Below, one piece after another: positions 23,920 through 39,654 of a DNA stretch of 63,911 nt. The notes under the pieces are model-generated. The model saw only the letters and a program-made list of their open reading frames with translations, was not told the origin of the DNA and searched no databases. Origin of the DNA: Methanocorpusculum sp. (lineage in GTDB: Archaea > Halobacteriota > Methanomicrobia > Methanomicrobiales > Methanocorpusculaceae). Within the stretch, counting starts at the first letter, position 1, and each line of letters begins with the position of its first letter. A program made the position numbers and the translations under genes. The DNA lies in NCBI RefSeq assembly GCF_030655665.1, contig NZ_JAUSPQ010000001.1, positions 1-63,911 on the forward strand. The letters run 5' to 3'.

Positions 23920-24132
23920 GAATTTGGTGAAATCTTAGATCGACGGATCCGTTTTTGGGGATCAGCTTTGCGAGCGGGCGACCCGCGGGGGGAATCCTCT
24001 GATTTAGGATGCTGTGAAAGTTATGCTCTTTTTTGCGGGATTTTTAGCTGATTTCCTGTAGGGAATATGTGTGGAAAAATAGAAGAAATTCGCCGGCAGA
24101 GGTGTGTTCACCTCTGCCCAGCGAGAAAGTTC

Positions 24133-24149
24133 GCAAACCTTCGGTTTGC
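24133..24149. repeat. REP-like hairpin GCAAACC-TTC-GGTTTGC
   Basis: Perfect 7-bp inverted repeat with a 3-nt loop, the first member of a family scattered through 24-45 kb. Here it is followed by TTTGCTGAGG, resembling the flank of other copies (GCTCAGCTAAGG, GCTCGGCTAAGG). Confidence 0.75.
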
Positions 24150-24169
24150 TTTGCTGAGGCCGTCCGCTT

Positions 24170-24268
24170 TCAGCGTCCAACCCAACCATCTACAAGCTTC
24201 CCAAAGAGTATGATGAGAAACCCGAGGAACACAAGGATCAGCTTCCTAAGGCGGCGGGAGATCTGCAT
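24170..24268 (-). CDS. Small single-pass membrane peptide, 32 aa
   Basis: Starts MQISRRLRKLILVFLGFLII, continuing with LFGKLVDG; a basic N-terminus and one transmembrane helix at about residues 8-24. A GGGAG Shine-Dalgarno sequence lies just before the ATG, and the frame starts 13 bp after the stop of the unknown gene at 24281-24772, so the two are probably one operon. Function unknown; an accessory or immunity-like peptide for the upstream protein is one possibility, purely by arrangement. Confidence 0.5.
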   Translation of the reverse strand: MQISRRLRKLILVFLGFLIILFGKLVDGWVGR

Positions 24269-24280
24269 CTCCGGTCTCCC

Positions 24281-24772
24281 TCAGTTCAGGGCCGGCTTGG
24301 TGTCTGCCCAGGCGTCGACTGCTGCAAGGGTGGCGTCGTCGGCATAGCCGGAGACGGTCATCGAATCGCGGTTGAGACTGATCTGGAAGGTATCGGTCCC
24401 AAGCTTCGCGGAAATGCGGACGTTCCACGTTGCTTCGATACCGATCTCGGTCGTCTCCGCGGTCCCGCCGTTCCCGAATGCGGCCTTGAGATCCGCACTG
24501 CCGGTAAGGGCGGTGATCGCTGCGGCGTATTCGGCCCGCGTGTAGGCGGTGACCTGGACCTTGCCGTTCATTTCGGAGGTGTTCGGGTCGAAGTAGCCGA
24601 CATAGGTCTTGTAGGTCTGCTTCCCGAGTTCGACTTCGGCGAGACCGAGGGGGTTTTCCACGCCGGTAATTTCTGCGATGATCGCATCATACGCGGCGGC
24701 GTTCGTAAACTCTGCGGTGAAGATCCGCTTTGCGGACTTCGAGATTGCTGTCTGAATGAAATCTGCTGTCAT
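24281..24772 (-). CDS. Uncharacterised protein, 163 aa
   Basis: I place the start at the ATG of MTADFIQTAISKSAKRIF (24772), because a good TATA box (ACTATATAAC on this strand, about 24826-24836) lies between it and any longer frame. The protein is a soluble alpha-beta type with repeated ITALTGSADLKAAFGNG-like segments and ends ADTKPALN. GC content is high, like the chromosome and unlike the neighbouring Roc gene. I do not recognise the family. A 32-aa membrane peptide follows immediately. Confidence 0.72.
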   Translation of the reverse strand: MTADFIQTAISKSAKRIFTAEFTNAAAYDAIIAEITGVENPLGLAEVELGKQTYKTYVGYFDPNTSEMNGKVQVTAYTRAEYAAAITALTGSADLKAAFGNGGTAETTEIGIEATWNVRISAKLGTDTFQISLNRDSMTVSGYADDATLAAVDAWADTKPALN

Positions 24773-24825
24773 ATTGTATCGTATTTTATCGAAGCCGACC
24801 CACTGCTCGAAGGCGTCCGCTCTGT

Positions 24826-24836
24826 TATATAGTATC
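24826..24836 (-). promoter_or_regulatory. TATA box of the 24281-24772 gene
   Basis: On the reverse strand the sequence reads ACTATATAACAG. It sits about 54-64 nt before ATG 24772, predicting a leader near 30 nt. It argues against the longer frame starting at 24901. The rest of 24837-25144 is very AT-rich and carries no gene I can support. Confidence 0.55.
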
Positions 24837-25144
24837 GTTATCGTATTGTATTTCGATATTTGGCGGGAGTTCTTCGGCGGTGTGCCGACCTCTACTACCA
24901 TATTGGATGGGAACCGGGATATAACGAGGGGGAAATGTCTTGAATTCTCTGTATTTTTGATGAGATCTATCTAAAATTCATCGTGCAATATTTCAGAAAG
25001 TGCCCGATTTATCATATTTATAAAAATAATAATAATACTCAGGAGTTATATTTTTGTTTAAAATCAAATCATTTTCCCAATATCAGCTATAAATTATATT
25101 TTTTGATAGAAAGAGTCAAATAGTATCTATGATGATTTAATTTT

Positions 25145-28100
25145 ATGGATGAGCAGCGATACATATACAATCTTGCAAAAATTTTGGATATCCCTATAAA
25201 GGAACAACCATATAATCCATCTGAATCTCCAACAGCATGGCTTCAAGCGCTTCCAACCACTATTAACACACTAGGATTTAACAAACTAGGATATGAGGAG
25301 CGTGCGGATTTTTCAGAATACTCAACGGGATGTATCATATTTTCTATAAGAAATGAATATATCAGATGTTTAGCCATTTATCTTCCTACAGAAAAACATT
25401 ACAATAATTTTAAAAATGTGATATTTCCTGAAATTAATAAAATATCTGAGTTAACATATCTCGAAATATTATATTTTCACAGCAAAGCTTTCAATCTTCC
25501 AAGATCAATTGAAAATCTTTCAAAACTCAAATGTCTTGATTTATGGGGGCGAGTCCAGAAAACACTAGAATATGGATATTTCAAAAATCTTTCTGAAGTT
25601 CAATATTTGTATTTATATGGGAATAATTTGCAAACATTCCAAAGAACGCTTGAAAATATTGTTAATAACTTCCCAAATATTACAGATTTGGATTTACGTA
25701 ACAATCACCTGAGTTCAATCCCCGAAAGTATAGGTAAACTTACTAAATTAAGGAAGTTAGATTTACGTGAGAATACTCTGACATGTATTCCTGATAGTAT
25801 AGGTACTCTTACCCAACTCAAAGAAATATATTTAAGTAAAAATCAAATTAGCAGAATTTCACCTGCTCTTGGAAAGCTCAGTGAACTTGAACGGTTGGAT
25901 TTAGGGGGAAACAACCTCTCTTCACAGGAAATTCAGGGATGGATTGAGCAACTAGTAAAACTAAAAAATCTCGATTTGAGGGATAACGCACTTGACTCTA
26001 TCCCAGAATCTTTTGGAACTTTGTCACAATTAAAAATATTGAATCTAAGTAATAATTATGGTATAAAGACGATTGATGATTTAAAACCTATTGGAGAAAT
26101 CCAGCAATTATCTCAGTTGTTTTTAAATTATACAAATATACGAAAAATTCCTCATTCATTTATTGAGTTGAATAAGTTATTTACATTTCAAATATATGAA
26201 ACACCATTACTAAAACTGTTACCTCCAGAAATTCTTTGCCAGTCTCCAAAAGAACTCATTCGATATATTTTAGATATACAACAGGATTCCAAGAAGCTAA
26301 ACGAATCGAAATTATTGATTGTTGGAGAGGGAGGGGTGGGAAAAACTTGTACTTTAAAAATGCTTACAGATGATGATTATGTTTTTAACCCTCACGAAGT
26401 ATCAACAGAAGGTATTGATATAGATAAGTGGGTATTTACTGAAGACGGAAATGAGTATAAATTGAATATTTGGGATTTTGGAGGTCAGGAAATCTACCAT
26501 GCAACCCATCAATTTTTCTTATCACGTCGATCCTTGTATTTGCTCATGTGGAGTGCGAGAAGTGATGCTACTGCTGGAAGGGTTGATTATTGGCTTAAAA
26601 CCATTACTACTCTTGCAGGCAATAGTCCAATTATTTTAGTTATTAATCAATGTGATGAAGGGCAACGCATTACTCCATTCAATATTGCAGAATATCAAGC
26701 GAAGTATTCGCAAATTAAAGATTATATTAAAATTAGTTGTAAAGATAATATTTCTGAGAATAGAATGGCCCTTCGAGAATGCATACGAAAAGAGGTGAAA
26801 AAATTACCATTAATGGAAGAAAAGTGGAGTTTAAAAAGATATGGTGTTAGAGAGGAGCTAGAAAAATGTGTCTCCTCGAATTATATCCCATATGAAAAAT
26901 ATAAAGAGATATGTCAGGAGAAATTGTTATCCGACAATATTGATATTGAAAGTCTAATTAAGCAATTAAATGATTTAGGCATAGTTACGTATCATAGTAA
27001 TGACAGTGAGCTACAAGGATATGTTATATTAGCTCCAGAATGGATTACAAATGCAGTATATAGTATCATTGATGAACAACAAAAAACCCTCAAAGACAGA
27101 AATGGCATTCTGAAGATATCTGATCTACCTAAAATATGGACAGATGAAAATCAGTACCCAAAATATATGTACACTTTTCTTTTAAAGATGATGGAAAGTT
27201 TTGATTTAGTCTTTCATATTGTTGATAACCAATATCTAATCGCAGAATTGTTAGAGGCGGAGCCACTTCCATCACCATGGGAATTTAATTCAAAGTCAAC
27301 ACGTAGATTTAATTATTATTATAAAGACTATCTGCCCGCCGGGATTATGACACGTTTTATCGTGAGAATAAATGAATTTCTGTATACAGATAGACATAAT
27401 AAAAAAAGTTGCTGGCGTTATGGTGCGTATTTGGAGCACAATGATGTGCAAGCATCTGTTAAATTAAGAGAAACAGATAAAACCCTCAGTATTGAAGTAT
27501 GTGGGGAAAATGGAATAAGTCGAAAAGATTTTTTGACAATTATTAGAAGTCACATTGATACAATAAATAATGATTATTCTAATCTTAATGTTACGAGAAA
27601 TGTACCTTGTTGTTGTAATTCGGAATGTAAATATGAATTTGATTATGATCAACTTCTTGAAAGAAAACAAAAAGGAAAACCCACTGCAGAATGTGGATTC
27701 TCCTTTGATGATGTAAGTATTAATAAGTTGATAGATGATATTAAAGACATTAATGATTACTACTTAAATCTATTTGATATCCTTGTTAGGGATGTAAAAG
27801 CTGATAATGATTGGAGTCGTTCTGTCAGAGATCTTCTGTATATCGAATTCTCAGGAGTGAAAAAAGACGATGCATGGCATTTTTATGTAAAGCGAATTAT
27901 AGATACACTCGTTGATCAGAGTCTATCAAATGAAGATAAATATGCCAATATAACATCAATAACATCACATATAACTAGTCGTGAGACAAGACCTTTTGAT
28001 GATCCAAATAATTATTTCCGGTGGGTACATCTTTCTGACATCCATATAGGATATAATGAAGGGGGAATTAGTTGCCTCGATTTCAGGAAAGCTCTTCCAA

Positions 28101-29056
28101 ACTATCTAAAAGACAAATTAAAAGATAAACAGCTTGATGGTTTGTTTATTACAGGTGATTTGCGTTATGCAAAAACTGAGGACAGTCCGTTAGAATATAC
28201 AAAAGAAATGGTAGATTTTGTAAAAAAACTGAAGGAAGAACTGAACATTGCTGACGATTGTCTATTTATAGTTCCTGGAAATCATGATCTTCAAAGACGG
28301 GATAAAGATGGATCAGATAAGATATTGAAAGATCGGAATAAAATAATAAAAAAACTGAAAACGACATATTGGCCTAGTTCAGGAAAAATAAATAAGGAAA
28401 TTTTGGAAAAATTAGCCTCTAATCTTAATGAATATGAGCAAATATATAAAGATTTAACTAGTAGAGAATGGGAGGGTGCACCTAAAATGGGTGAGATAAT
28501 AAAGCCACATTTTGTAATTCCAACACCAAAAACAAACATACTGCACTTAAATACAGTTTTAACCATTTCTAATATATATGAGACGGATTTGATTGTCGGT
28601 AGAGAACGTCTAGAGAGGGCATGTGAAAATATAGATACGAATAAACCTACAATCGTATTAGCACATTACCCTTTTGAAGATATTTTAGAAAGTGAACGAA
28701 GGGTGATTGAAACTGACCTGAGAGATAAAGCAAATACCATACTTTATCTTTGTGGTCACAGCCATACAACTGCGCATATATTAATTGCTGCTACGAATGA
28801 GTCTCGCCCAATTCATGAATTCCGTTGTGGAACAAATATGGTTTCGGAGGGTACACCCAACTGGCAACCAGAATTAGTTGTTTATAGTGGTTGTATGGAA
28901 CTATCATCTAAAAGTGGTTATGTAGAGGCATATAAATGGGTTAAGAATTCAAACTGGGTATTGGATACCACATTTTCTTTACCACAAAAATGTGCAGAAG
29001 ATGGAAGAATATATTTTCCAGAGAGTGCAAGAGACGAGAAAGAGAAGTTCCCATAA
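25145..29056 (+). CDS. LRR-Roc-COR GTPase fused to calcineurin-like phosphoesterase
   Basis: 1303 aa, AT-rich and unlike the flanks. Residues about 90-360 are leucine-rich repeats (LTKLRKLDLRENTLTCIPDS units of 23 residues). Residues about 385-560 form a Roc GTPase: P-loop VGEGGVGKTCTLK near 391-403, DFGGQEIYHATHQFF near 443, and G4-like NQCDE near 500. A COR domain with a Cys-rich stretch (PCCCNSECKYEF, about 820) follows. Residues 958-1290 are a metallophosphoesterase: HLSDIHIG near 961, ITGDLRY, PGNHD near 1044, AHYPF and CGHSH near 1204, so all five metal motifs are present. LRR sensing, GTP-driven dimerisation and phosphodiesterase output would suit an immune switch. The function is inferred; there is no partner gene on its strand. 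Confidence 0.93.
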   Translation: MDEQRYIYNLAKILDIPIKEQPYNPSESPTAWLQALPTTINTLGFNKLGYEERADFSEYSTGCIIFSIRNEYIRCLAIYLPTEKHYNNFKNVIFPEINKISELTYLEILYFHSKAFNLPRSIENLSKLKCLDLWGRVQKTLEYGYFKNLSEVQYLYLYGNNLQTFQRTLENIVNNFPNITDLDLRNNHLSSIPESIGKLTKLRKLDLRENTLTCIPDSIGTLTQLKEIYLSKNQISRISPALGKLSELERLDLGGNNLSSQEIQGWIEQLVKLKNLDLRDNALDSIPESFGTLSQLKILNLSNNYGIKTIDDLKPIGEIQQLSQLFLNYTNIRKIPHSFIELNKLFTFQIYETPLLKLLPPEILCQSPKELIRYILDIQQDSKKLNESKLLIVGEGGVGKTCTLKMLTDDDYVFNPHEVSTEGIDIDKWVFTEDGNEYKLNIWDFGGQEIYHATHQFFLSRRSLYLLMWSARSDATAGRVDYWLKTITTLAGNSPIILVINQCDEGQRITPFNIAEYQAKYSQIKDYIKISCKDNISENRMALRECIRKEVKKLPLMEEKWSLKRYGVREELEKCVSSNYIPYEKYKEICQEKLLSDNIDIESLIKQLNDLGIVTYHSNDSELQGYVILAPEWITNAVYSIIDEQQKTLKDRNGILKISDLPKIWTDENQYPKYMYTFLLKMMESFDLVFHIVDNQYLIAELLEAEPLPSPWEFNSKSTRRFNYYYKDYLPAGIMTRFIVRINEFLYTDRHNKKSCWRYGAYLEHNDVQASVKLRETDKTLSIEVCGENGISRKDFLTIIRSHIDTINNDYSNLNVTRNVPCCCNSECKYEFDYDQLLERKQKGKPTAECGFSFDDVSINKLIDDIKDINDYYLNLFDILVRDVKADNDWSRSVRDLLYIEFSGVKKDDAWHFYVKRIIDTLVDQSLSNEDKYANITSITSHITSRETRPFDDPNNYFRWVHLSDIHIGYNEGGISCLDFRKALPNYLKDKLKDKQLDGLFITGDLRYAKTEDSPLEYTKEMVDFVKKLKEELNIADDCLFIVPGNHDLQRRDKDGSDKILKDRNKIIKKLKTTYWPSSGKINKEILEKLASNLNEYEQIYKDLTSREWEGAPKMGEIIKPHFVIPTPKTNILHLNTVLTISNIYETDLIVGRERLERACENIDTNKPTIVLAHYPFEDILESERRVIETDLRDKANTILYLCGHSHTTAHILIAATNESRPIHEFRCGTNMVSEGTPNWQPELVVYSGCMELSSKSGYVEAYKWVKNSNWVLDTTFSLPQKCAEDGRIYFPESARDEKEKFP

Positions 29057-29147
29057 TGCAAGCAAATATATCTGGGTGTAAATATTACTGCATAGTTAAT
29101 AGAACATAATAAGAGAAAAAATAGGGATTCTACTCCCTCTTCCGCTC

Positions 29148-29164
29148 GCAAACCTTCGGTTTGC
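29148..29164. repeat. REP-like hairpin GCAAACC-TTC-GGTTTGC
   Basis: Identical 17-bp hairpin to that at 24133, here flanked by CTCGGCTAAGGCCGCC and a second hairpin (GCCCCTTCGGGGC, about 29176-29190). It lies at the 3' end of the leftward small-gene cassette. Confidence 0.75.
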
Positions 29165-29168
29165 TCGG

Positions 29169-29384
29169 CTAAGGCCGCCCCTTCGGGGCAGCCCGCCGGA
29201 TAAACCGCGGCATCACCCCCCGCTGCCCCTTTGCCGTAAGCCCGTGCCGCTTCAAAGCCGTCTCCACACACTGCCGCGAACACCCCGCCCGAAGCGACAG
29301 CTCCCGGACACTCAGCCCCGCATCCACCAGCTCTTTTAACTTCGTTCTATCAAGTAATTCAGCAAAATCATACCAGTGTTTCAT
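29169..29384 (-). CDS. Small HTH-like protein, 71 aa
   Basis: MKHWYDFAELLDRTKLKELV, then VRELSLRAGCSRQCVETALKRHG, a good helix-turn-helix pattern at residues about 28-50, and a basic tail. The last codons run into the hairpin region, so the natural C-terminus may have been altered by it. It is the last gene of the coupled cassette. Such DNA-recognition segments resemble the end domains of HNH homing endonucleases. Function unknown. Confidence 0.6.
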   Translation of the reverse strand: MKHWYDFAELLDRTKLKELVDAGLSVRELSLRAGCSRQCVETALKRHGLTAKGQRGVMPRFIRRAAPKGRP

Positions 29385-29488
29385 CAGGGGTAACCCCCTT
29401 CTTCGCCACTGGTCTTCAGCCGCAAGGAAAAACCTTGCTCCACTAAGGGCGAACCTGTCGGTTCACCCCGTTCGTACCAGTGCTTCAC
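29384..29488 (-). CDS. Small linking frame, 34 aa
   Basis: A GTG at 29488 overlaps the stop of the 174-aa gene as GTGA, and its TGA overlaps the next ATG as TGATG. It begins VKHWYERGE, nearly repeating the MKHWYDFAE start of the following gene, while its middle translates hairpin DNA (GCAAGGAAAAACCTTGC region). It may be a disrupted first copy of the next gene's start rather than a functional peptide. Confidence 0.3.
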   Translation of the reverse strand: MKHWYERGEPTGSPLVEQGFSLRLKTSGEEGGYP

Positions 29489-29976
29489 GACTTCACCTCA
29501 ATCACATACCCCTTCGGGACCACCCGCTCCGACACATACCGGGAAAACTCCGGTGCCGGAAGCCGCGTCTCCAGATCCTTCAGATTCACCTGCTCATAAT
29601 TCACGATCCGGTCCTTGATCAGCTTCTTCGTCGCATCATACAGGAACTTCTTCGACAGAAGCTTCCCCGCATCCGCCGGCGAAACAAACACCACCTCCGC
29701 AAACAGATCCGGCATCTCCTCGCGAAGCAGAGGAACATTCACGGTCTTGTTCTTCTTCTCCTCCCGCCGGAGAACAAACTCCGCAGACTCAAGACCGCCG
29801 GCTCTGATCTCATCGACCGTCTCCAGAAACCGGGTCTTATACTCCTTCGCCGCCGCTTCCAGCGCCGCCGTCATCTCCTGACAGAAAAACGCATCCGCAT
29901 ACTCCTCGGCAGGGTGAGGAAACGCCGTCTCCAGAATGGAGAGGACACATCCCGACTCCATCTTACCTGTGGGCAT
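29485..29976 (-). CDS. Uncharacterised cassette protein, about 163 aa
   Basis: The ATG at 29976 (MPTGKMESGCVLSIL) overlaps the stop of the zinc-ribbon gene; a longer frame reaches 30009. The protein is mostly helical with a charged centre (FVLRREEKKNKTVNV) and ends YVSERVVPKGYVIEVKS. No motif I can name. GC-rich, with the same base usage as its cassette neighbours, and coupled by 4-bp overlap to the frame downstream. A plasmid or virus origin is likely from context only. Confidence 0.62.
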   Translation of the reverse strand: MPTGKMESGCVLSILETAFPHPAEEYADAFFCQEMTAALEAAAKEYKTRFLETVDEIRAGGLESAEFVLRREEKKNKTVNVPLLREEMPDLFAEVVFVSPADAGKLLSKKFLYDATKKLIKDRIVNYEQVNLKDLETRLPAPEFSRYVSERVVPKGYVIEVKS

Positions 29977-30217
29977 AGTGATCTTCCTCCTGCCGGGCGA
30001 TGGCATCATGCATCTTCCGCAGCGCTATCTTTGACAGCGAGACAAGGTACTCCTCCTTCTCCGAATCGACCCGGAGCATCACCGATCCGCAGACTGGGCA
30101 CCGGATCCTCTTCCGCCGCAGTTCGTCAAGGTCCCGGACCCAGAACTCCTTCGCCTCCACCGCAAAACAGTGCGGACAGGCAAACTTCACCGTGCGCCGA
30201 TACTCGGATCCGTTCAC
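29963..30217 (-). CDS. Zinc-ribbon protein, 84 aa
   Basis: Two cysteine pairs, CPHC (residues about 14-17) and CPVC (about 40-43), separated by EAKEFWVRDLDELRRKRIR, make a four-Cys zinc ribbon. A basic helical tail follows. Its ATG overlaps the HNH gene stop by 4 bp. Probably nucleic-acid binding; function unknown. Confidence 0.7.
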   Translation of the reverse strand: MNGSEYRRTVKFACPHCFAVEAKEFWVRDLDELRRKRIRCPVCGSVMLRVDSEKEEYLVSLSKIALRKMHDAIARQEEDHYAHR

Positions 30218-30741
30218 AGGCCCACCTCCGCATAGGTCCGCCGGGAAACGATTCGGTGTATCGTGGACTTGTTCACGCCAAACTCCGCGGCGAGAAAACG
30301 CGGAGGTTCGCCGTCCGCATACCGTCGTCGGATCTCCCCCGTCTGCTCATCCGTAAAGATCCGCTTTTTTCGCCCGGATAGCGGGTGGTTATTGTCCCAG
30401 AACGGGATCAGCCGAAGGTTTGCGAGCCGGCAGTCCTCGATATTCCCGTTGATGTGGTCGATATGCAGATTCAGATCCACCGGCAGATCGTCCATCGTTC
30501 TGCAGGTCCCGCCGATGTAAACGGCCCGGTGCTTGGTGATGTTCACCCGGAATCCCTTATATCGGCACGGAGTGGAGAGATACCCGTTGTTTTGATAGGA
30601 AAATTTCAGAGGCTTTCCGGTGTTCCGCGAGATGATCTCGCCATTTTCCGCATCGACTCTCCAGGTCCCGGCAAGGATCCGCGAGAGGATCACCCGGTCC
30701 GCGATCCGGAGACCGAGGCAGGGGTTATGCTCCTGCGTCAT
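30214..30741 (-). CDS. HNH endonuclease with C-terminal HTH
   Basis: 175 aa. The central DLNLHIDHINGNIEDCRLAN holds the HNH core (first His-Asp-His and the downstream Asn of the HNH_3 type). The C-terminus FGVNKSTIHRIVSRRTY is a helix-turn-helix that would read DNA. This layout is typical of phage-type homing or free-standing HNH nucleases. The ATG overlaps the upstream stop as ATGA. It is the only gene in the cassette with a clear enzymatic family. Confidence 0.85.
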   Translation of the reverse strand: MTQEHNPCLGLRIADRVILSRILAGTWRVDAENGEIISRNTGKPLKFSYQNNGYLSTPCRYKGFRVNITKHRAVYIGGTCRTMDDLPVDLNLHIDHINGNIEDCRLANLRLIPFWDNNHPLSGRKKRIFTDEQTGEIRRRYADGEPPRFLAAEFGVNKSTIHRIVSRRTYAEVGL

Positions 30742-31163
30742 TCTTCCTCCGGCCGTTCATTCGAGAACGTGATCTTGATGGTAAAGGTTTGACCGTCGAG
30801 GACCCGGTAGGGGAGGGCCTTCTCTTTAAGCTCTTCGAGGATGAGGTGGGCAAAGCGTTCGTGCATCGTGTTGACGATCGCCGCACATTGAATTGTCTTG
30901 GGGATTTCAAGGGAGTTGATGATCAGATCGATAACAGGAGATGCTTCGTAGTCGGTCTGGCTCCATATCCGGTTTTTGGTGTTTCGGTTTTGGGGATCGC
31001 TGGTGCCTGCGGGTCCGAAGGGGCGGACGGTGGGTTTTTCTGGTCTCGGGTCGAATCTGTTTTTGCCTGTTCCCTGAAACTGTTTAGACGCTGGTTTAGG
31101 GCAGGCATGTTTTTCGCGAATGGTTTCGCTGCTTGTGGTTTGTTTCTTTCTGTTCTGTCTCAT
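30738..31163 (-). CDS. Uncharacterised cassette protein, 141 aa
   Basis: The first 70 residues are basic, low-complexity and probably disordered (KKQTTSSETIREKHACPKPA); the last 70 form a compact helical-beta part ending GQTFTIKITFSNERPEEE. No family recognised. Both ends are joined to neighbours by 4-bp overlaps (31160-31163, 30738-30741). Confidence 0.6.
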   Translation of the reverse strand: MRQNRKKQTTSSETIREKHACPKPASKQFQGTGKNRFDPRPEKPTVRPFGPAGTSDPQNRNTKNRIWSQTDYEASPVIDLIINSLEIPKTIQCAAIVNTMHERFAHLILEELKEKALPYRVLDGQTFTIKITFSNERPEEE

Positions 31164-31531
31164 TGTGTGATTCCTGTGATTTTTGCTAAGCGGGGATAGT
31201 TTTCTTTGAACTGTGCAATAACATCGAGGTAGATATCGGGATGTTTTTTCGCGAGGATGTCTGTCCTGTTTTTGAGGGCGAGTCTCGCACTTTCTCTGGT
31301 CTCAAAGAGGTAGAGGAAGGTGTTTTCGCTTTCGATGTCGCCGAAATAGATCTGATAGATGTCCTGGTCTGATGTTGCCGCCGGGTTTTGCTGCCCTATG
31401 CTCGCGATGTTTTCGAGGGCTTTTTCCATGAATCCAACGATCATGCCGGAAGCGTCTTTGCCGAACTGTTCTTTATATTGGTAAAGAAGAGGGGCTTTTG
31501 CTTCGGGGATGTAGACTTTGTAGTCAGGCAT
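31160..31531 (-). CDS. Uncharacterised cassette protein, 123 aa
   Basis: Begins MPDYKVYIPEAKAPLLYQYK and looks like a helical DNA- or protein-binding protein with a central region FLYLFETRESARLALKNR. No known domain is evident. Its ATG at 31531 overlaps the stop (31524-31526) of the small RHH-like gene, keeping the cassette fully coupled. Confidence 0.62.
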   Translation of the reverse strand: MPDYKVYIPEAKAPLLYQYKEQFGKDASGMIVGFMEKALENIASIGQQNPAATSDQDIYQIYFGDIESENTFLYLFETRESARLALKNRTDILAKKHPDIYLDVIAQFKENYPRLAKITGITQ

Positions 31532-31682
31532 CGGTTTCTCCGTGGTCGTTTAGGTGTTTTCTCATGAGACCGAGGATCATTTTGGATGTGTGCGGTCTTT
31601 GGTACTTTCTGGAGAAGGCTTCGAAGGTTTTTCGATCCGGTTCTCCGATGTACATGGTGAATGTCAGTCCTATGTTTTTCAC
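31524..31682 (-). CDS. Small RHH-like protein opening the cassette, 52 aa
   Basis: GTG at 31680-31682 begins VKNIGLTFTMYIGEPDRKTF and the frame ends RKHLNDHGETDA with TGA overlapping the next start. A short strand (GLTFTMYIGEP) followed by two helices (RKTFEAFSRKY, SKMILGLMRKHL) is the ribbon-helix-helix plan of small repressors. An ATG at 31655 is an alternative start. If right, it likely represses its own operon. Confidence 0.5.
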   Translation of the reverse strand: MKNIGLTFTMYIGEPDRKTFEAFSRKYQRPHTSKMILGLMRKHLNDHGETDA

Positions 31683-31739
31683 TTCCTTGTTTGTTCGGTT
31701 TTTGGCAAGTCGTATGACTTACAAGGATAGATGGGTTTT

Positions 31740-32115
31740 GCAGATATTTAATATTAATTATTTGCATCAAATAGTATGTAAATTTGCATATTTTGTGTTT
31801 GAACAGGTATGTGGAAAGGTATGTGTGTATGTAGATATATGTGGTGAAAAAAAAGGATAGGGGGGTAAGGACTACGTCCGTAAGTAAGTAAATACGGGAA
31901 GAAAATTGCTCATCAATCACTTTTTTTTTATAAGTATAGTATGTACTTTGTTTTGTACAGAAGAGAGAGAGAGAGAGAGAGAGAGAAAGCAAAAACACAT
32001 TTGTCTATGTGTGTATGTAAGTACGTCTTTCCTTCCGTCCGGACGTAGTCGGGAGGGAGGTATCGTTTTTTTTTATTTTGTGTATGTAGGTACATGTGTA
32101 GATACATGCATAGTA
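31740..32115. repeat. Iteron-like region with GTATGT repeats and a GA tract
   Basis: Upstream of the cassette the DNA is AT-rich and carries many GTATGT(A/G) repeats (near 31772, 31806, 31815, 31823, 32010, 32083) and their inverses, a (GA)n tract at about 31962-31985, and an 11-bp inverted repeat GACTACGTCCG at 31870-31880 with its complement at 32040-32050. No gene is supported here. Iterated short repeats beside a small RHH-type gene recall plasmid origins or partition sites. Confidence 0.45.
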
Positions 32116-32201
32116 TTTCGCGGTGTTGTGATCCAGAGCGGGAAAAACTGGGGTCTTTATGAGATGTACTTCGATTTCGTGTATGGGAAGGTGCACAAGC
32201 A

Positions 32202-32649
32202 TGAGAAAAAAAACCAACCGCGAATCGGCGCGAATCCGCCCTTCGGGCGAGGCGAATCGGATTTGCTTATCCTCACTTTCGCAACCCAGCTTCGCTGTCT
32301 TGCTCATCCCTTCATCGGGACCGTTCGGGCAAATCCTGTCGGCACCCCAGCGCCTCCCGGGGATTATTTCCTCCCCGTTTCATTTTGAGATTGTCAGAAA
32401 AGAACAATTACCTCATTTAGTAATGCTGAATGAACATCTCACTCAAAGGAGCCGCTGGGGCGGCGACAGGATTTGCCCGAACGGTCCCGATGAAGGGACG
32501 AGCAAGTCGAGGGCGGGGTGAGCCGATAGGCTCGCCCTTAGCTGAGCAAACCGAAGGTTTGCGAGAGACTTGCGAGAGTGAGGATCAGCAAATCCGATTT
32601 TTCTCGCCCGTAGGGCGGATTCGCGCCGATTCGCGGTTGGTTTTTCTCA
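32202..32649. mobile_element. Long inverted-repeat element 1 (non-coding)
   Basis: Left arm 32202-32352 and right arm 32453-32649 are reverse complements with few mismatches: TGAGAAA...ACCAACCGCGAATCGG on the left is matched by CCGATTCGCGGTTGGT...TTTCTCA on the right. The right arm carries about 50-60 extra bp that include a REP-like hairpin (32546-32562). The 100-bp loop has no gene. It could fold into a giant hairpin; I find no transposase, so a MITE-like passenger is the simplest reading. Confidence 0.7.
32546..32562. repeat. REP-like hairpin inside the long-IR element
   Basis: GCAAACC-GAA-GGTTTGC, the reverse complement of the copies at 24133 and 29148, preceded by CTTAGCTGA. It has no counterpart in the left arm, so it was probably inserted after the element formed. 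Confidence 0.75.
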
Positions 32650-32820
32650 GGTTTCTACAATCCAACAAACTCCTTTCCGAATTGGATCCCCACCAACACC
32701 GTGTACCTCCTGCTTAACAAAAGATGGGGTCGCAGATATTCGCAAAGCTCCCAATGAAAAAAAACGCTGCGGGTTCGCTGCGAGGGGTCAAAGACCCGAA
32801 TAAAAGAGGTTGAATACGGA

Positions 32821-33045
32821 TCAGGTTTTCCCCTGTCCTTTTTCCAGGATCTCTTTGATGCATCCAAGAATTAATGGTGAAAACAGGGTCCGGATGCATG
32901 GATCTCTGTAGTCTATCTGGGCCAAAATGCCTCGCTGTGCGTCGGGGTACTGCCATTGGTGGCTCCCCTTCGTCAGATACTGCGGTGTAATTGTTTGGTT
33001 CTTCTGATTCAGATAGGATTCTGCCCCGCTGAGTTTGTGGTCCAT
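32821..33045 (-). CDS. Possible small protein, 74 aa
   Basis: Begins MDHKLSGAESYLNQKNQTIT and ends SPLILGCIKEILEKGQGKT. A TATA-like GTATATAATACC on this strand (about 33101-33112) lies upstream, divergent from the gene at 33142. Residue composition is protein-like in the second half, but two overlapping frames are also open, so this is uncertain. No family recognised. The rest of 32650-33141 shows nothing else. Confidence 0.35.
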   Translation of the reverse strand: MDHKLSGAESYLNQKNQTITPQYLTKGSHQWQYPDAQRGILAQIDYRDPCIRTLFSPLILGCIKEILEKGQGKT

Positions 33046-33115
33046 TGGGGTCTAATGAATACATAGGTTTTTTTGATATTTAATTGCTGTTGTTTTGTAT
33101 TGGTATTATATACTC

Positions 33116-33127
33116 TGGCGTATATAA
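33116..33127 (+). promoter_or_regulatory. TATA box of the 33142 gene (leaderless)
   Basis: GGCGTATATAAG ends about 15 bp before ATG 33142, with the TATA centre about 20-22 bp upstream. This spacing predicts a transcript that starts at or within a few bases of the ATG. The divergent GTATATAATACC about 10 bp further upstream would serve the opposite strand. Confidence 0.55.
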
Positions 33128-33141
33128 GTTTACATACAGAC

Positions 33142-33387
33142 ATGGTTGCAGTGAAAAGTAAGAAGCCTTTGCTGAGCACACGGGTGAGCTGGGAGGTTTA
33201 TGATCGTGTGATCGCTTTGACGAAGGGGGAGAAGCCGCAGTTTGAGTCGATCAGTGATTATCTGACGGCGACGATTTTGACGGATCTTGCACGGAGAGAT
33301 ATGGGGATCGATGCGGAGAAGGCGAAGATGCTTTTGATGCTGCAGGATCCGGAGATCCAGAAGGAGCTGTGCAGAAGGCTGCTGTGA
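33142..33387 (+). CDS. Small RHH-like DNA-binding candidate, 81 aa
   Basis: MVAVKSKKPLLSTRVSWEVYD, then RVIALTKGEKPQFESISDYL and LTDLARRDMGI. A strand (LLSTRVSWEVY) followed by two helices suits a ribbon-helix-helix or CopG-like plasmid regulator. Translation appears leaderless. It is alone between the iteron-like region and a REP cluster. Function inferred. Confidence 0.6.
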   Translation: MVAVKSKKPLLSTRVSWEVYDRVIALTKGEKPQFESISDYLTATILTDLARRDMGIDAEKAKMLLMLQDPEIQKELCRRLL

Positions 33388-33420
33388 GCGGGCCATCCCT
33401 TTAGGGGCGGTCTCAGCCAA

Positions 33421-33518
33421 GCAAGTCATCAGACTTGCGACCAAATCTTTGATTTGCGACTGCGGATCGGCGGCGCAGCCGGCGATCTTAGCCGAGCAAG
33501 TTTTCGAAGGAAACTTGC
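33421..33518. repeat. Cluster of REP-like hairpins
   Basis: GCAAGTC-ATCA-GACTTGC at 33421-33438, an AAATC-TTT-GATTT hairpin next to it (about 33442-33455), and GCAAGTTTTCGAAGGAAACTTGC at 33496-33518. All share the GCAA/TTGC ends and GCGAC or CTTAGCCGAG flanks. The stretch 33388-33625 holds no gene otherwise. Confidence 0.7.
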
Positions 33519-33625
33519 GACTGGATGGGTCGAAGGATTTTGGGATCGGGCCTTAGCCCGGGCAGACTCACGTTCGATCAGCGTAAAAAAAGAACGTGGA
33601 GACCTGATCCGTTTTCTGTCCAGCG

Positions 33626-33958
33626 TTACAGGCTTTGCCCATCAGCAGCTGCCGCAGCAAATCCAAGGGCAAAAATACGGGCGAGGCAGGCATCCCACTC
33701 TATATTGAGCTTTTTTCGCTGCTCTTCGATGCTGTCCATATGTTTTTGCGTGATACAGATCTGCATTGCCGGTATCTCGTCCTGTGGTCGATCGGGATAG
33801 AGCTCAGAATCCCCATAACCTTTTGGAAAAGCCTCTTCTGCTCCCTCGATATGGGATACTTGTTTTTCGTTAAAAACGTAGGTCATTCCTGAAAAATACA
33901 GAACATCTTTCTCGAGAATGGTGAAATCCACTTCTACTTCATTGTCTTTTTCTGACAT
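33626..33958 (-). CDS. Uncharacterised protein, 110 aa
   Basis: I choose ATG 33958 (MSEKDNEVEVDFTILEKDVL), because the TATA sequence GATTTATATT (33981-33990 on this strand) is placed 25-30 bp upstream, giving a leaderless start; a longer frame to 33982 would overlap the TATA box. Acidic, probably a small alpha-beta protein; no family recognised. Its promoter block is repeated at 39557-39640 in inverted orientation. Confidence 0.6.
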   Translation of the reverse strand: MSEKDNEVEVDFTILEKDVLYFSGMTYVFNEKQVSHIEGAEEAFPKGYGDSELYPDRPQDEIPAMQICITQKHMDSIEEQRKKLNIEWDACLARIFALGFAAAAADGQSL

Positions 33959-33980
33959 ATATACAACATCTGCATAGATC

Positions 33981-34063
33981 AATATAAATCCCTAACCGCG
34001 CGGTGCGATAATGCCTCCGCTTTTGGCGGAAACACGGTGCTCAGTGAGAGAGATGGGTTACAA
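33981..34063 (-). repeat. Promoter-containing block, inverted copy of 39557-39640
   Basis: On the reverse strand this reads CCCATCTCTCTCACTGAG, about 25 diverged bases, then GGCATTATCGCACCGCGCGG and TTAGGGATTTATATT. The same order occurs on the forward strand at 39557-39640. It includes the TATA box of the 33958 gene. The two copies face each other across the hsdM-hsdS region. Confidence 0.7.
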
Positions 34064-34240
34064 AAATTGAGGAAAAAGTGGAGAGGATACCATTTTGGAG
34101 AGGATGGCCGGATTTTTGGTTGTGCCGGTATTTTCTCCACCTCGTGCTGAAATTTTCGATTGATTTATTAGAATTGGCATGCAATTTACTGTCATTGTAC
34201 TTCTTTCCAAGAGTATGTAATTTCTTTTTGGAGTAAATCT

Positions 34241-35956
34241 ATGAGTTTAGGGTCAAATATATCTGAGAAAGCAAATCTTATCTGGGCAATTGCTGATAAA
34301 TTGACCGGGACATACAAGCCGCATGAATACGGGGAAGTCGTCCTTCCCCTGACGGTTATCCGGCGGTTTGACTGTATTCTCGTGGATAAAAAGGCCGCGG
34401 TGCTTGCCGAGTACGAGAAGCAGAAGTCTCTTCCAAATCCGGATCCGATCCTTCGCATAGTTGCCGGGTATGATTTTTACAATACCAGTAAATTTACGAT
34501 GAAAACCCTGCTGGATGATCCGGACAATATCGAGGCAAACTTCCGGAATTATCTGAATGGTTTTTCGAAGAATGTGCAGGAGATCATTGAGAAGTTCCGG
34601 TTCGACGCCCATATCACGATGATGGCGACGAAGGGGATTCTGTATAATGTGCTGAAGGAGTTTACGACGGAGAAGGCGAATCTTCATCCAGATCATATCT
34701 CGAATCTTGAGATGGGATATATTTTCGAGGAGCTTGTACGGAAGTTTTCAGAGGCGCACAATGAGGATGCGGGTCAGCACTATACGCCGCGTGAAGTGAT
34801 CGAACTGATGGTGAATATTCTGTTCGAGGATGACGGCGAGGCTTTGACAGGTTCGAAGGTGATGAAGACGTTGTATGATCCGGCGTGCGGGACGGGTGGT
34901 ATGCTTTCGGTGGCGTCGGAGCATTTGCAGGAGATGAATGCCGATCTGCAGCTTTTGTGTTTTGGTCAGGAGCTGAATGATCAGACGTTTGCGATCTGTA
35001 AGGCGGATCTTTTGATCAAGGGCGGGGATGCGGATCAGATCAAGTGCGGGAATACGCTTTCGGGCGATGCATTTACAGGGATGCATTTCGATTATATTTT
35101 GTCGAATCCGCCGTTTGGGCGTGAGTGGAAGAATGAGAAGACGGCGGTTGATCGTGAGGCGAAGCTTGGGTTTGCGGGCCGGTTTGGTCCGGGTCTTCCG
35201 GCGATCGGTGATTCGCAGCTGTTGTTTTTGCTGACGGCTCTTTCGAAGATGAAGGCTGAGGGGTCGCGTGCGGCGATCATTCATAACGGGTCTCCGCTGT
35301 TTACGGGGGATGCGGGAAGCGGTCCGTCGGAGATCCGCCGCTATATTCTGGAGCATGATCTTTTGGATGCGATCATTGCTATGCCAAATGATATTTTCTA
35401 TAATACGGGCATTGCGACCTACATCTGGGTTTTGTCGAATAAGAAGGCTGAGCATCGGATAGGTAAGGTCCAGCTGATCAATGGGAATCAGATGTTTGAG
35501 AAGAGGCGGAAGTCGCTTGGGAGTAAGAGGAATGATATCCCGAGGAGTGCGATCGATGAGATCACGCGTCTGTATGGGGATTTCCGCGAGTCTGAGGTTT
35601 CGAAGATTTTCAGGAATGAGGAGTTTGGGTACCGGAAGATCACGGTGGAGCGGCCGCTTCTGGACGCGTCAGGGAAGCCGGTTTTGAAGAAGGGGAAGGT
35701 GCAGGCTGATGCTTCGCTGCGGGATACGGAGAGCGTGCCTCTTGGAGAGGATGTGGATGCGTATCTGACGCGGGAGGTTTTGCCGTTTGCGCCGGGTGCC
35801 TGGGTGGATGAGTCGAAGACGAAGATCGGGTATGAGATCCCGTTCACGCGGTATTTCTATACGTATGAGGCTCCAAGACGGAGTGAGGAGATAAGAGCGG
35901 AGATCTTAGCTTTGGAGAAGGAGCTTGACGGGAGCCTGGCGGAGATCTTTCGATGA
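34241..35956 (+). CDS. hsdM: Type I restriction-modification methyltransferase subunit HsdM
   Basis: N6-adenine methyltransferase subunit of a type I enzyme, 571 aa. The N-terminal helical domain (SEKANLIWAIADKLTG) precedes the catalytic fold: SAM-binding DPACGTGGMLSVA near 212 and the catalytic NPPFGREW near 289. Full length. GGAG precedes the ATG. The stop overlaps the next start as ATGA. Base use (T- and G-ending codons) differs from hsdR, suggesting separate histories. Confidence 0.95.
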   Translation: MSLGSNISEKANLIWAIADKLTGTYKPHEYGEVVLPLTVIRRFDCILVDKKAAVLAEYEKQKSLPNPDPILRIVAGYDFYNTSKFTMKTLLDDPDNIEANFRNYLNGFSKNVQEIIEKFRFDAHITMMATKGILYNVLKEFTTEKANLHPDHISNLEMGYIFEELVRKFSEAHNEDAGQHYTPREVIELMVNILFEDDGEALTGSKVMKTLYDPACGTGGMLSVASEHLQEMNADLQLLCFGQELNDQTFAICKADLLIKGGDADQIKCGNTLSGDAFTGMHFDYILSNPPFGREWKNEKTAVDREAKLGFAGRFGPGLPAIGDSQLLFLLTALSKMKAEGSRAAIIHNGSPLFTGDAGSGPSEIRRYILEHDLLDAIIAMPNDIFYNTGIATYIWVLSNKKAEHRIGKVQLINGNQMFEKRRKSLGSKRNDIPRSAIDEITRLYGDFRESEVSKIFRNEEFGYRKITVERPLLDASGKPVLKKGKVQADASLRDTESVPLGEDVDAYLTREVLPFAPGAWVDESKTKIGYEIPFTRYFYTYEAPRRSEEIRAEILALEKELDGSLAEIFR

Positions 35957-36786
35957 GGGGGGAGGGAGAGATGAGCGAAAATGAACCGCCCCGCTCAAAA
36001 GAATGTATTGTGGCATATTTAGATTTGCTCGGCGTCAAAGAAAAAATTCTCAATGATGATGATAGTGAAACAAATCTTGCAATAATAAGAAAATTGTATA
36101 ATGAGGTTATCGCTCTCCAAAACGAAAAAAACCCGACTCTCAAGATATTTCAGACATGCAAATTCAAAATATTCTCAGACAATATCGTGTTTATACAGGA
36201 ACTATCTAATGATCCCAATGATTCAATAGACGCTATTGAGGGATTATTTCGAATATTTGGAGTTGTTGCTGATTTCCAGTATTGTGCATTTTTAAATTAC
36301 CGTTGGTTATTACGCGGAGGGATTGTTCAGGGTCCACTCTATTCGGATGAGGATATCGTTTGGGGTAAGGCTCTTGTAGCCTCGCATTATTTGGAAGATA
36401 AACTTGCAATATTTCCAAGGGTAATTATTGATGAGCAATTACATCAGCTAATATTGAAATCTGAATCTCACATTAAGGATATCAGGATAAAGATCGATTC
36501 TGATGGTTATTCTTATGTTGATTATTTAAATTTCATGTTTATTGATGGACTAAACCCATATCAGTTGACTCCATTTCTGACTATGGAGTTCCCCAAAATA
36601 CAAAATACTTTCATAGATATGCTTTCAAAAGTACCAACAGATGCAAAACCAGAATCTAAAAGTATTCGTGCGAAATACAGGTGGCAAATTAATTATTATA
36701 ATGGGGCATGCAAAGAGACTGGTTTTGAGGAATATTGTGTCGATCCCGGGTTAATTTTGTCTTATGAGGAGGGCATATCAGAATGA
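35953..36786 (+). CDS. Class III nucleotidyl-cyclase-like protein inside the RM operon
   Basis: 277 aa, AT-rich. The order of motifs resembles a diverged class III cyclase domain: CIVAYLDLLGVKEKI (first metal aspartate, like the xDxxGF strand), then CKFKIFSDNIVFIQ (second aspartate, like the GD loop), then LRGGIVQGPLYSDEDIVWG with KALVASHYLE (like GIHxG...G...NxAxRLE). The purine-specifying and transition-state residues are not clearly kept, so activity is open. It lies between hsdM and hsdS with ATGA overlaps at both ends. ATG 35971, with a GGGAGGG before it, is an alternative start. Confidence 0.72.
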   Translation: MRGEGEMSENEPPRSKECIVAYLDLLGVKEKILNDDDSETNLAIIRKLYNEVIALQNEKNPTLKIFQTCKFKIFSDNIVFIQELSNDPNDSIDAIEGLFRIFGVVADFQYCAFLNYRWLLRGGIVQGPLYSDEDIVWGKALVASHYLEDKLAIFPRVIIDEQLHQLILKSESHIKDIRIKIDSDGYSYVDYLNFMFIDGLNPYQLTPFLTMEFPKIQNTFIDMLSKVPTDAKPESKSIRAKYRWQINYYNGACKETGFEEYCVDPGLILSYEEGISE

Positions 36787-38018
36787 ATTCTATTCCAACT
36801 GGATGGACTAAAAACAGAATGAAATACTGTGTTACTCTTAATCCTAGTTATTCCAAAAATCTGAATGATTCGGATTCAATATCATTCATTCCCATGGAAT
36901 GTTTAACAAATGGCTCCATCTGTCCTAAAACAGATGTTGTTGGAAGAGTTAAGACAGGGTATACATTTTTTGCTGATGGGGATATTATTATGGCAAAAGT
37001 CACCCCTTGTTTTGAAAACGGAAACATAGCCATAGTACATAATCTCTTGAATGGAGTTGGGTTTGGAACATCCGAATTGTATGTTTTCCGATCTAAAACA
37101 ATAGATACTGTATATCTTTTCTATTATTTACAAAATGATCAGTTCAAACAACTCTGTATAGGTACGATGTATGGAACCGGCGGTTTGAAACGAGTTTCAT
37201 TAGATTTCATTCGCAATTATACATTTTATGTACCACCATTCGCAAAACAACAACAGATCGCCTCTTTCCTCGACACAAAATGCTCCTTGATCGATTCCAC
37301 CATCGAAAAAGAACGCGAGGTCATTGAGAAGCTGAAGGAATACCGGCAGGCGGTCATCACCGAGGCGGTGACCAAAGGGATCCGTCCCGGTGTTTTGATG
37401 AAGGACAGCGGGGTCGAGTGGATCGGGGAGATCCCGGAAGGGTGGGATGTATTCCGGGTAAAATATCTATTGACTGAGTGTGAAGAGCGATCATTAAACG
37501 GCACCGAAGAACCTCTCTCCATGAGTCAAAAATATGGTATAATTAAATCGTCTGATCTGGATATTCCAAATCCTGCATCATCCTATGTTGGAGGTAAATT
37601 GGTTTTTGAAGAGGATCTTGTCTTCAATAAACTCAAAGCTCATTTAGGCGTCTTTTCCCTGTCTAAATATATGGGTGTAGTCAGCCCGGATTATGCTGTA
37701 TATCATGGAATAAATGATACAAATGCCAAGTTTCTCGAATACTTGTTTAAGACAGGAAAATGTATTTGTGAATTTAAAAAATATATCCGTGGTGTTGGGG
37801 CTGGCTTAAGTCGATTATATACTTCTGACCTCTTTAATATCAAAGTTGCAATTCCTCTGTGTGATGAACAACAATTAATTGTTGAATTTCTTAACTCAAA
37901 ATGCTCTGATATCGACGCGACCATCCAAAAACGGGAGCTTGCTATCGAAAAGCTGACCGCGTATAAACAGAGCCTCATCTACGAGTGCGTCACCGGAAAG
38001 AAGGAAGTTTTAGCGTGA
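36783..38018 (+). CDS. hsdS: Type I restriction-modification specificity subunit HsdS
   Basis: 411 aa with two target-recognition domains. TRD1 (about 1-150) ends in AKQQQIASFLDTKCSLID, followed by the helical conserved region IEKLKEYRQAVITEAVTKG. TRD2 begins GEIPEGWDVFRVKYLL near 217 and ends in QQLIVEFLNSKCSDIDATIQKR. The helical spacers are GC-rich whereas the TRDs are AT-rich, as expected when TRDs are exchanged by recombination. Start overlaps the cyclase-like gene by 4 bp; the stop overlaps the next GTG. Confidence 0.94.
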   Translation: MNSIPTGWTKNRMKYCVTLNPSYSKNLNDSDSISFIPMECLTNGSICPKTDVVGRVKTGYTFFADGDIIMAKVTPCFENGNIAIVHNLLNGVGFGTSELYVFRSKTIDTVYLFYYLQNDQFKQLCIGTMYGTGGLKRVSLDFIRNYTFYVPPFAKQQQIASFLDTKCSLIDSTIEKEREVIEKLKEYRQAVITEAVTKGIRPGVLMKDSGVEWIGEIPEGWDVFRVKYLLTECEERSLNGTEEPLSMSQKYGIIKSSDLDIPNPASSYVGGKLVFEEDLVFNKLKAHLGVFSLSKYMGVVSPDYAVYHGINDTNAKFLEYLFKTGKCICEFKKYIRGVGAGLSRLYTSDLFNIKVAIPLCDEQQLIVEFLNSKCSDIDATIQKRELAIEKLTAYKQSLIYECVTGKKEVLA

Positions 38019-38767
38019 GTGAAGAGGAAGAAAAGCAGTTAGCTTATCAAAATAATGAGGAGGTGCAAAACAGGTTGATGGATTTATATAATCAAATAAG
38101 TGAGTGTAATTGGGCAAAAACTCAATACGAACTTCGCAATCTGAAAAACACCCTGTATATTTTTGAAGAAAATTACAAAGAACTGGTTAACCATTTTAAA
38201 TCTTTTCAATACCAAGGCAAAATAGACCTCAGGCCTAATCTATCTCAAGATGAATATGAAAATATCCAGCTCAAATCCGCACGATATCTTTACAACTATT
38301 TGTCTGCTGCAAGAACTTTGCATTATCATACTAAAATATTCATGAATAAATATAAGAACACCTCATTTGATGAAGCTGCCATGAAAAAAGTCTCATCACT
38401 TTTCCCGGATGAATTAAACAAATTCCTTCCAGAGTTAAGAAATTACATGGTTCACCAAGGCCTCTATCATCATTGTCTCCTGACAGACATCACCAAACAA
38501 CCAAGAGAAATAAGGATGGTTTTTAATAAAAATGAATTATTGGAGTCTAAAAAGTGGTCTGAGGATAGTCGAAAATATATACTTTCTTGGGACGGAGATT
38601 TTGAGCTGGAACTATTTTGTGAGGACTATCATGAGAAAGCGACCGAATATTATACTTGGTTCTTCTCCGCTCTAATGGAATATCATGATAAGGATTTGAA
38701 AGAATATGAGAAATTAAATAATGAATATAAACTGACTGCATCTAAATATAATAGGAAACGTCAATAA
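38015..38767 (+). CDS. HEPN-motif candidate protein at the end of the RM operon
   Basis: GTG 38015 overlaps the hsdS stop as GTGA, with AAGGAAG before it, so I prefer it to the longer frame from 37985. The 250 aa are helical, with PELRNYMVHQG near residue 139-148. R-x4-H in a helix, preceded by a predicted helical bundle, is the signature of HEPN ribonucleases and related toxins. The rest is unrecognised. As the last gene of hsdM-cyclase-like-hsdS-this, it is likely made with the methylase and may be an RNase effector, which is inference. Confidence 0.65.
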   Translation: MSEEEEKQLAYQNNEEVQNRLMDLYNQISECNWAKTQYELRNLKNTLYIFEENYKELVNHFKSFQYQGKIDLRPNLSQDEYENIQLKSARYLYNYLSAARTLHYHTKIFMNKYKNTSFDEAAMKKVSSLFPDELNKFLPELRNYMVHQGLYHHCLLTDITKQPREIRMVFNKNELLESKKWSEDSRKYILSWDGDFELELFCEDYHEKATEYYTWFFSALMEYHDKDLKEYEKLNNEYKLTASKYNRKRQ

Positions 38768-39640: not shown

Positions 39641-39654
39641 GCATCGAATCAGAA

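Follow-up and report, generated by a model that had tools for sequence, protein, structure and literature searches.

What does a Roco GTPase do in an archaeon when a phosphoesterase is joined to its C-terminus? This question is raised by a gene in a stretch of 63,911 nucleotides (the window) from Methanocorpusculum sp. (contig NZ_JAUSPQ010000001.1; genome of 1.81 Mb, 98% complete), which encodes leucine-rich repeats (LRRs), a Roc-COR GTPase and a calcineurin-like metallophosphoesterase (MPE) in a single protein. The gene is carried, within a genomic island, by a recurring element at a site whose content varies, and compared with the closest Rocos the C-terminal domain has been exchanged. We propose that the protein may be a sentinel against invaders. 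In the following, loci and genomes are designated by L and G numbers.

Domain architecture of the Roco protein

The gene (25145..29056, on the forward strand, as are all its parts given below) is one uninterrupted open reading frame (ORF) with an ATG start and no internal stops, and it encodes 1303 amino acids. The LRRs, a putative sensor, occupy residues ~100-350 (25442..26194; Pfam LRR_8, LRR_4 and LRR_14), with LRR_8 matching three stretches of the N-terminal part (E = 4.8e-26); their outer limits were set by judgement from alignment A1. They are followed by the Roc GTPase domain (residues 389-504; 26309..26656; PF08477, 1.4e-26) with the P-loop VGEGGVGKT (residues 393-401; 26321..26347), in which G394, G396, G399, K400 and T401 are invariant across alignment A1, and the switch II motif DFGGQE (residues 444-449; 26474..26491), which is invariant in the same alignment. 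COR-A (residues 568-703; 26846..27253; PF16095, 1.8e-33) and COR-B (residues 721-865; 27305..27739; PF25497, 3.5e-33) come next, and then a linker that is predicted to be helical (residues 866-957; 27740..28015), in which an EAD or other Pfam domain was sought up to an E-value of 10 and none was matched. The C-terminal MPE, the putative effector (residues 958-1277; 28016..28975), is recognized by PF00149 Metallophos from residue 959 onward (E = 1.5e-10), by the PADLOC profile PDLC00736 and by its structural model. The matches to LRR_8, Roc, COR-A, COR-B and Metallophos all exceed the curated Pfam cut-offs, and E-values this low exclude a chance match. One archaeal gene thus appears to combine sensor repeats with a GTPase switch of the LRRK2 kind and with an enzyme that is predicted to be a metal-dependent phosphodiesterase. 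A preliminary description of this DNA had noted the three modules in one protein and listed their motifs; both observations were borne out by the Pfam matches and by the presence of every motif named (VGEGGVGKT, DFGGQE, DIH, GDL, GNHD, AHYP and GHSH).

The phosphoesterase domain

Five motifs make up the MPE site, and their positions were compared in an alignment of 25 MPE sequences, i.e., the window protein and its relatives (alignment A5). Motif I, DIH (D965, H967; 28037..28045), motif II, the GD of GDL (G1004, D1005; 28154..28159), motif III, GNHD (residues 1045-1048; 28277..28288), and motif IV, H1174 of AHYP (28664..28666), are invariant, as are the G and both H of motif V, GHSH (residues 1204-1207; 28754..28765), so that the positions of DxH, GD, GNHD, H and GHxH are conserved in 25 out of 25 sequences. 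Since the metal-site positions do not vary, the site should, judging from this alignment, be competent for two-metal phosphoester hydrolysis; the relatives have retained the motifs.

PDLC00736 (labelled “Effector” and “Endonuclease”), which in our view represents the calcineurin-SAVED effector from the cyclic oligonucleotide-based antiphage signalling system (CBASS), matches residues 958-1277 (E = 2.4e-32). This match spans positions 3-295 of the 561 of the profile; it stops at profile position 295-305, and the C-terminus of the Roco protein follows shortly after. An AlphaFold2 model of the MPE based on the 25-sequence alignment has a predicted local distance difference test score (pLDDT) of 68 and a predicted template modelling score (pTM) of 0.75, while an alignment of 7 sequences gave a poorer model (pLDDT 57). 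The top fold match is Bacillus subtilis YydB (9a6c_B, itself an integrative/deep-learning model of YydB with YydD; Z 25.3, 299 aligned residues, root-mean-square deviation 3.5), and it is followed by SMPDL3A/B and acid sphingomyelinase (Z ~20), Rv0805 and GpdQ (17), Lmo2642 (16.9) and Mre11/SbcD (14-15). The sequence profile ranks the solved structures in the order Lmo2642, GpdQ, Rv0805 and then SbcD/Mre11. The MPE is, therefore, likely a phosphodiesterase; by fold as well as by profile, it matches phosphodiesterases that act on nucleotides and also nucleases of the Mre11/SbcD kind. The earlier suggestion that it cleaves nucleic acids or nucleotides consequently stands as far as a likely phosphodiesterase is concerned, on the strength of sequence and model, with the matches split between the two kinds of enzyme.

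Exchange of the C-terminal domain and other Roc-COR-MPE fusions

To place the MPE among the C-termini of Roco proteins, the tails following the COR domain of 76 Rocos were each scanned separately. They contained TIR_2 (25), CHAT (3), EAD7 (3) and guanylate cyclase (2) domains, and an FGE-sulfatase, PNP, peptidase C25 and Metallophos domain once each. The single MPE tail belongs to a Blastocatellia protein of 2013 amino acids with the order LRR-Roc-COR-MPE-FGE (L053). A search of archaea with PDLC00736 yielded further fusions of the type WD40-Roc-COR-MPE (L129, L130 and then L186), and the Roc-COR of these WD40-type proteins led to another Roc-COR-MPE protein (L201), from a genome that belongs to the same order as the window; its WD40 part is deduced from the kinship of its Roc-COR. 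Roc-COR-MPE is thus present in at least six loci, including the window, with two kinds of sensor: LRR (window, L053) and WD40 (L129, L130, L186, L201). The COR region of the WD40-type proteins falls under the Pfam thresholds, but in a profile-profile comparison their Roc-COR matches that of the window protein over 442 columns with 99.5% probability (3.8e-23). Their MPEs are only distantly related to that of the window (17-20% identity). With regard to a possible single origin of the Roc-MPE fusions, a branch of the MPE tree (92/96) has five fused MPEs together on one side, though branches are very long, while the Roc-COR tree requires two changes for the window and L053.

Searches of phages and plasmids did not find the fusion; what they turned up was limited to matches with Roc-COR or LRRs and a single, distant MPE from Priestia. 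Predicted viral contigs in IMG/VR (L191-L194) do encode Roc-COR proteins, two of which (L193, L194) end TIR-like. Other C-termini were recognized by eye: a protein of the same Roc-COR group as the WD40-type proteins has a cyclase-like end (L203:2607-5807, reverse strand), and another Roc-COR protein has a TIR-like start and a DUF4365-like C-terminal end (L202:3079-6528, reverse strand). The latter was observed in genome G249 (C2), which has two Roc-COR proteins with different C-termini, one with an MPE (L130) and one without (L202). In Candidatus Electronema aureum, a Roco gene is followed, ~3 kb downstream, by a free-standing MPE gene of 275 amino acids (L098:8867-9691, forward strand), and the pair is possibly a two-gene version.

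The MPE family of the window also occurs on other proteins, where it is N-terminal: on archaeal NB-ARC-TPR proteins (L176, L180, L181, L185, L190), on a NACHT-FGE protein (L131, and L132 by similarity) and on a TIR protein (L127). Several members of this family also match the candidate-defence profile PDC-S60. In one archaeal order, PDLC00736 has matches in 15 out of 50 genomes, and MPE-NB-ARC-TPR proteins are frequent there (L173-L190); judged by their sequences, these form an archaeal family of signal transduction ATPases with numerous domains (STAND) with a predicted phosphoesterase effector. Calcineurin-like domains have been listed among the cell-killing domains joined to SAVED in CBASS (PMC10419184), and calcineurin was reported to be the commonest effector of GAP1-N1 systems and predicted to act as a nucleotidyl phosphodiesterase (Kaur et al., 2020; PMC7159879).

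Origin of the Roc-COR part

A COR-A match was obtained in only one of 25 congeneric genomes, the window's own, which encodes a single COR protein; NB-ARC proteins were sought in this genome and none was found. A contig scan with a single protein as query gave no Roco relatives, while an alignment used as query succeeded. In the resulting Roc-COR tree of 109 sequences, the window protein falls together with a Roco of Oscillibacter from a goat reticulum and with two from Paenibacillus (SH-aLRT 96-97), while the archaeal Rocos of the Methanosarcina type are placed elsewhere. The window protein has a long end branch and long-branch joins were flagged, which leaves its exact sister uncertain. By identity, too, a Paenibacillus protein comes closest (L041, 46% over 461 columns). 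Because the Roc-COR groups with Bacillota and not with other archaeal Rocos, the gene was probably acquired by lateral transfer, apparently from bacteria.

The three nearest Rocos lack an MPE, one ending in a transmembrane-like stretch (L039) and the others in coiled tails (L041, L042); the effector of the window protein has, therefore, been exchanged relative to them. The genes for HsdM, HsdS and HsdR follow immediately after L039, and those for LmuA and LmuB (Lamassu-type) immediately after L041. Linkage to type I restriction-modification (RM) systems was also considered as a general trait of Rocos and rejected, since it was seen at 1 out of 80 loci with the queries used and without control loci.

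The Roco gene as cargo of a recurring element

The gene lies in a genomic island of 20.5 kb (23928..44471) that is replaced by ~0.5 kb in three congeners (G003, G014, G016). Synteny with G016, and in places with G003 and G014, extends over both flanks (15.0-23.93 and 44.47-63.9 kb); in these congeners the flanks lie ~0.5 kb apart at an empty site, which identifies the 23.93-44.47 kb segment as an island. It contains, besides the Roco gene, an ORF encoding an HNH-HTH protein, small ORFs, and genes for HsdM (34241..35956), HsdS (36783..38018), a Fic-domain protein (40193..41197) and HsdR (41244..44246), all four on the forward strand. The Roco gene has a GC content of 32.6% (23.8% at third codon positions), compared with 49.8% for the flanks. 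An AT-rich gene in GC-richer surroundings and an island with a type I RM system and Fic had both been noted beforehand, and composition, congeners and RM and Fic profile matches agree with this.

Within the island, the gene is enclosed by the modules of an element that recurs in the genus. The left module (24049..24772) comes with an ORF on the reverse strand (24281-24901), and the right modules (29199..33392) comprise an ORF at 29485-30009, the HNH-HTH ORF (30214-30741) and small ORFs. In comparisons with congeners, these pieces (24.05-24.77 and 29.2-33.4 kb) adjoin elsewhere in G014 and G016, separated by a gap of 0.56-1.3 kb (L149, L150, L152, L153). In L149 this slot holds, in place of the Roco gene, a 151-amino-acid PD-(D/E)XK_3 protein (PF13366, 1e-41). 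The genus-wide element has a variable cargo site and, since its modules adjoin elsewhere without the Roco gene, this gene is cargo in that slot, within a variable, defence-type island. The alternative cargo in G014 is of the GxxExxY type (L149:11836-12288), and G016 has a similar ORF (L150:11572-12021).

Several other features of the island were observed. Two segments (24028-24781 and 32143-32711) recur in many dispersed copies, both in this genome and in related ones, and the second contains long inverted repeats and resembles a miniature inverted-repeat transposable element. A short hairpin-forming repeat, TCGCAAACCTTCGGTTTGC, and its relatives (24131-24165, 29146-29180, 32533-32565, 44355-44384) flank the Roco gene on both sides and sit near both ends of the island, with related copies scattered in congeners. 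In the type I RM operon (window 35953-38018), HsdS and the ORF before it have 39% and 36% GC, respectively, and HsdM and HsdR ~50%; the operon is a mosaic, in which the specificity part was perhaps exchanged. Two ORFs of the RM region (35953-36786 and 37985-38767) have no Pfam match and match phrog_23933 and phrog_12680, both of unknown function.

Proposed function and alternative explanations

We consider the protein to be a single-gene, intracellular sentinel resembling nucleotide-binding leucine-rich-repeat receptors (NLRs), of the Roco (AP-GTPase) counter-invader type, with a predicted function in abortive infection, and estimate the probability of this reading at about 60%. It is based on the intact modules, the interchangeable C-termini of Rocos, the presence of the same MPE family on NB-ARC, NACHT and TIR proteins and the position of two of the nearest Rocos beside RM or LmuAB genes, as well as on the PDLC00736 and PDC-S60 matches, the calcineurin domains of CBASS (PMC10419184), the class of Rocos predicted previously (PMC8195603), the recurrence of Roc-COR-MPE with both LRR and WD40 sensors, and the island with its cargo slot. 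The LRRs would recognize an invader-derived or infection-altered molecule and this recognition would shift the nucleotide state of the Roc-COR. For CtRoco, the bacterial Roco that has been studied in most depth, it has been demonstrated that the nucleotide-free or GDP-bound protein is a dimer and that the GTP-bound form is an open, active monomer (PMC5714945, PMC11052575). By analogy, a resting apo/GDP dimer may become an active, GTP-bound open monomer, and the switch may free or position the C-terminal two-metal phosphoesterase. The MPE would then cut phosphodiester bonds, with nucleic acids as a first and nucleotides as a second guess, and stop the infected cell. The preliminary description had likewise assumed a sensor, a switch and an effector, which fits the counter-invader Roco plan as far as the text of Kaur et al. 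(PMC8195603) sets it out; its GTPase-driven dimerisation runs against the behaviour of CtRoco, which suggests that monomerisation is the better default for activation.

Some observations weigh against a defence function. The confidence of the MPE model is moderate (pLDDT 68), and among the fold matches the phosphodiesterases for nucleotides and lipids (SMPDL3A, acid sphingomyelinase and Rv0805) come after YydB but before Mre11/SbcD. The tested defence markers occur near only 3 out of 80 Roco loci (RM at L039, Lmu at L041 and Fic alone at L086), and L130 is surrounded by housekeeping-looking ORFs. The idea that homologues would be found among defence genes, hence, holds for two of the nearest Rocos (L039, L041) but not for the wider sample, where the RM and Lmu types searched for were present at 2 out of 80 loci.

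The nearest folds after YydB being nucleotide and lipid phosphodiesterases, a signalling role is possible, in which a class III-type phosphodiesterase under control of the GTPase would lower the level of a nucleotide second messenger, as part of host physiology and not of immunity. This is consistent with Lmo2642, GpdQ and Rv0805, all phosphodiesterases, as the closest solved sequences, with the ranking of SMPDL3A and Rv0805 above Mre11 and with the prediction for calcineurin effectors by Kaur et al. (2020; PMC7159879). We nevertheless think it unlikely, given a COR protein in just one of the 25 congeneric genomes, a gene that is AT-rich island cargo, nearest Roco relatives without a C-terminal enzyme and the same MPE family on NB-ARC, NACHT and TIR proteins. 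It seems less probable still that the protein is a weapon of the element itself, which excludes rival elements or, as an anti-defence protein, degrades an immune messenger of the host, and so serves the element and not the cell. The location of the gene between conserved element modules, the PD-(D/E)XK_3 protein in another copy of the slot and the Roco genes on predicted viral contigs would fit such a role, but a constitutive messenger hydrolase would need neither an LRR sensor nor a GTPase switch, and the swaps with TIR, CHAT and cyclase domains in the same C-terminal position better fit host-arresting effectors. That the gene is a decayed or silent passenger without current function, as its sole copy in the genus sample and its foreign composition might indicate, is quite improbable, because decay would not be expected to leave an AT-rich ORF of 3.9 kb open and all of its GTPase and metal-site motifs in place. 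An assembly chimera or contamination, to which the Bacillota-like Roc-COR and a composition unlike the flanks could be ascribed, is most improbable in view of syntenic flanks on both sides, genus-specific repeats that enclose the gene as modules of the element, a single uninterrupted ORF and Roc-COR-MPE fusions in other genomes.

The built-in enzyme would make prokaryotic Roco function testable, since the GTPase output could be read as phosphodiesterase activity, toxicity or protection against phages. It would also tie LRRK2-type GTPases to the pool of effectors known from NLR-like STAND proteins and from effectors of the CBASS type, and would suggest movement of such a receptor from bacteria to archaea within a defence-type island. 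More tentatively, and in our opinion with the odds somewhat against it, Roc-COR could be a general prokaryotic module of immune activation that drives, among other effectors, a dedicated phosphodiesterase domain shared with NB-ARC, NACHT, TIR and CBASS-type proteins; in that case, the gene would provide the Rocos of archaea and bacteria, relatives of the Parkinson's kinase LRRK2 for which almost no physiological role is known, with an enzymatic output and a function in abortive infection.

Comparison with known systems

LRR-Roc-COR was described in 2014 as the typical form of prokaryotic Rocos, and a review of 2019 placed all prokaryotic Rocos in a group with only LRRs before the Roc-COR (PMC6337361). 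For prokaryotic proteins of the LRR-AP-GTPase-COR type, Kaur et al. (2021) described no fewer than 24 C-terminal domains that replace one another and predicted a counter-invader function; their text names GT4, TIR, DRHyd, caspase, trypsin, FGS and EADs as effectors (PMC8195603). An MPE is not among the domains named in that text for the C-terminal slot, but may be listed in Figure 6D and the source data, which are outside this comparison. As far as described there, the class has N-terminal LRRs, Roc followed by COR, and a variable C-terminal effector in common with the window protein; its genomes “can possess” several paralogues with different effectors, while here a single copy occurs in an archaeon, which does not disqualify it. 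The modular plan of LRR-Roc-COR with an effector is already described, and an MPE in that position was not found described: we found no paper in the open-access literature on a Roco or Roc-COR fused to a metallophosphoesterase or calcineurin domain. The fusion may, consequently, be called undescribed in that restricted sense, but its plan is published (PMC8195603) and at least five other Roc-COR-MPE loci exist.

LRR-Roc-COR is shared with CtRoco of Chlorobium tepidum and the archaeal LRR-Roco structures (4wnr, 6hlu, 8r4b), of which 4wnr is the best solved-structure match to the window protein (3.6e-68); these lack a C-terminal enzyme, whereas the window protein has an MPE. The PDLC00736 effector has an MPE of the same profile family, but its C-terminal half, judging from the CBASS review a SAVED-type sensor (PMC10419184), is absent here and Roc-COR fills the regulatory place. 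In Bacillus subtilis YydB, the closest MPE fold, the domain is a separate protein. The archaeal MPE-NB-ARC-TPR and MPE-NACHT-FGE proteins (L176, L180, L181, L185, L190, L131) likewise combine this MPE family with an NTPase switch and repeats, although there the MPE is N-terminal and the switch a STAND ATPase, while in the window protein the MPE is C-terminal and the switch a Roc GTPase. The WD40-Roc-COR-MPE proteins (L129, L130, L186, L201), finally, have Roc-COR followed by an MPE in common with the window protein, with a beta-propeller as sensor where the latter has LRRs.

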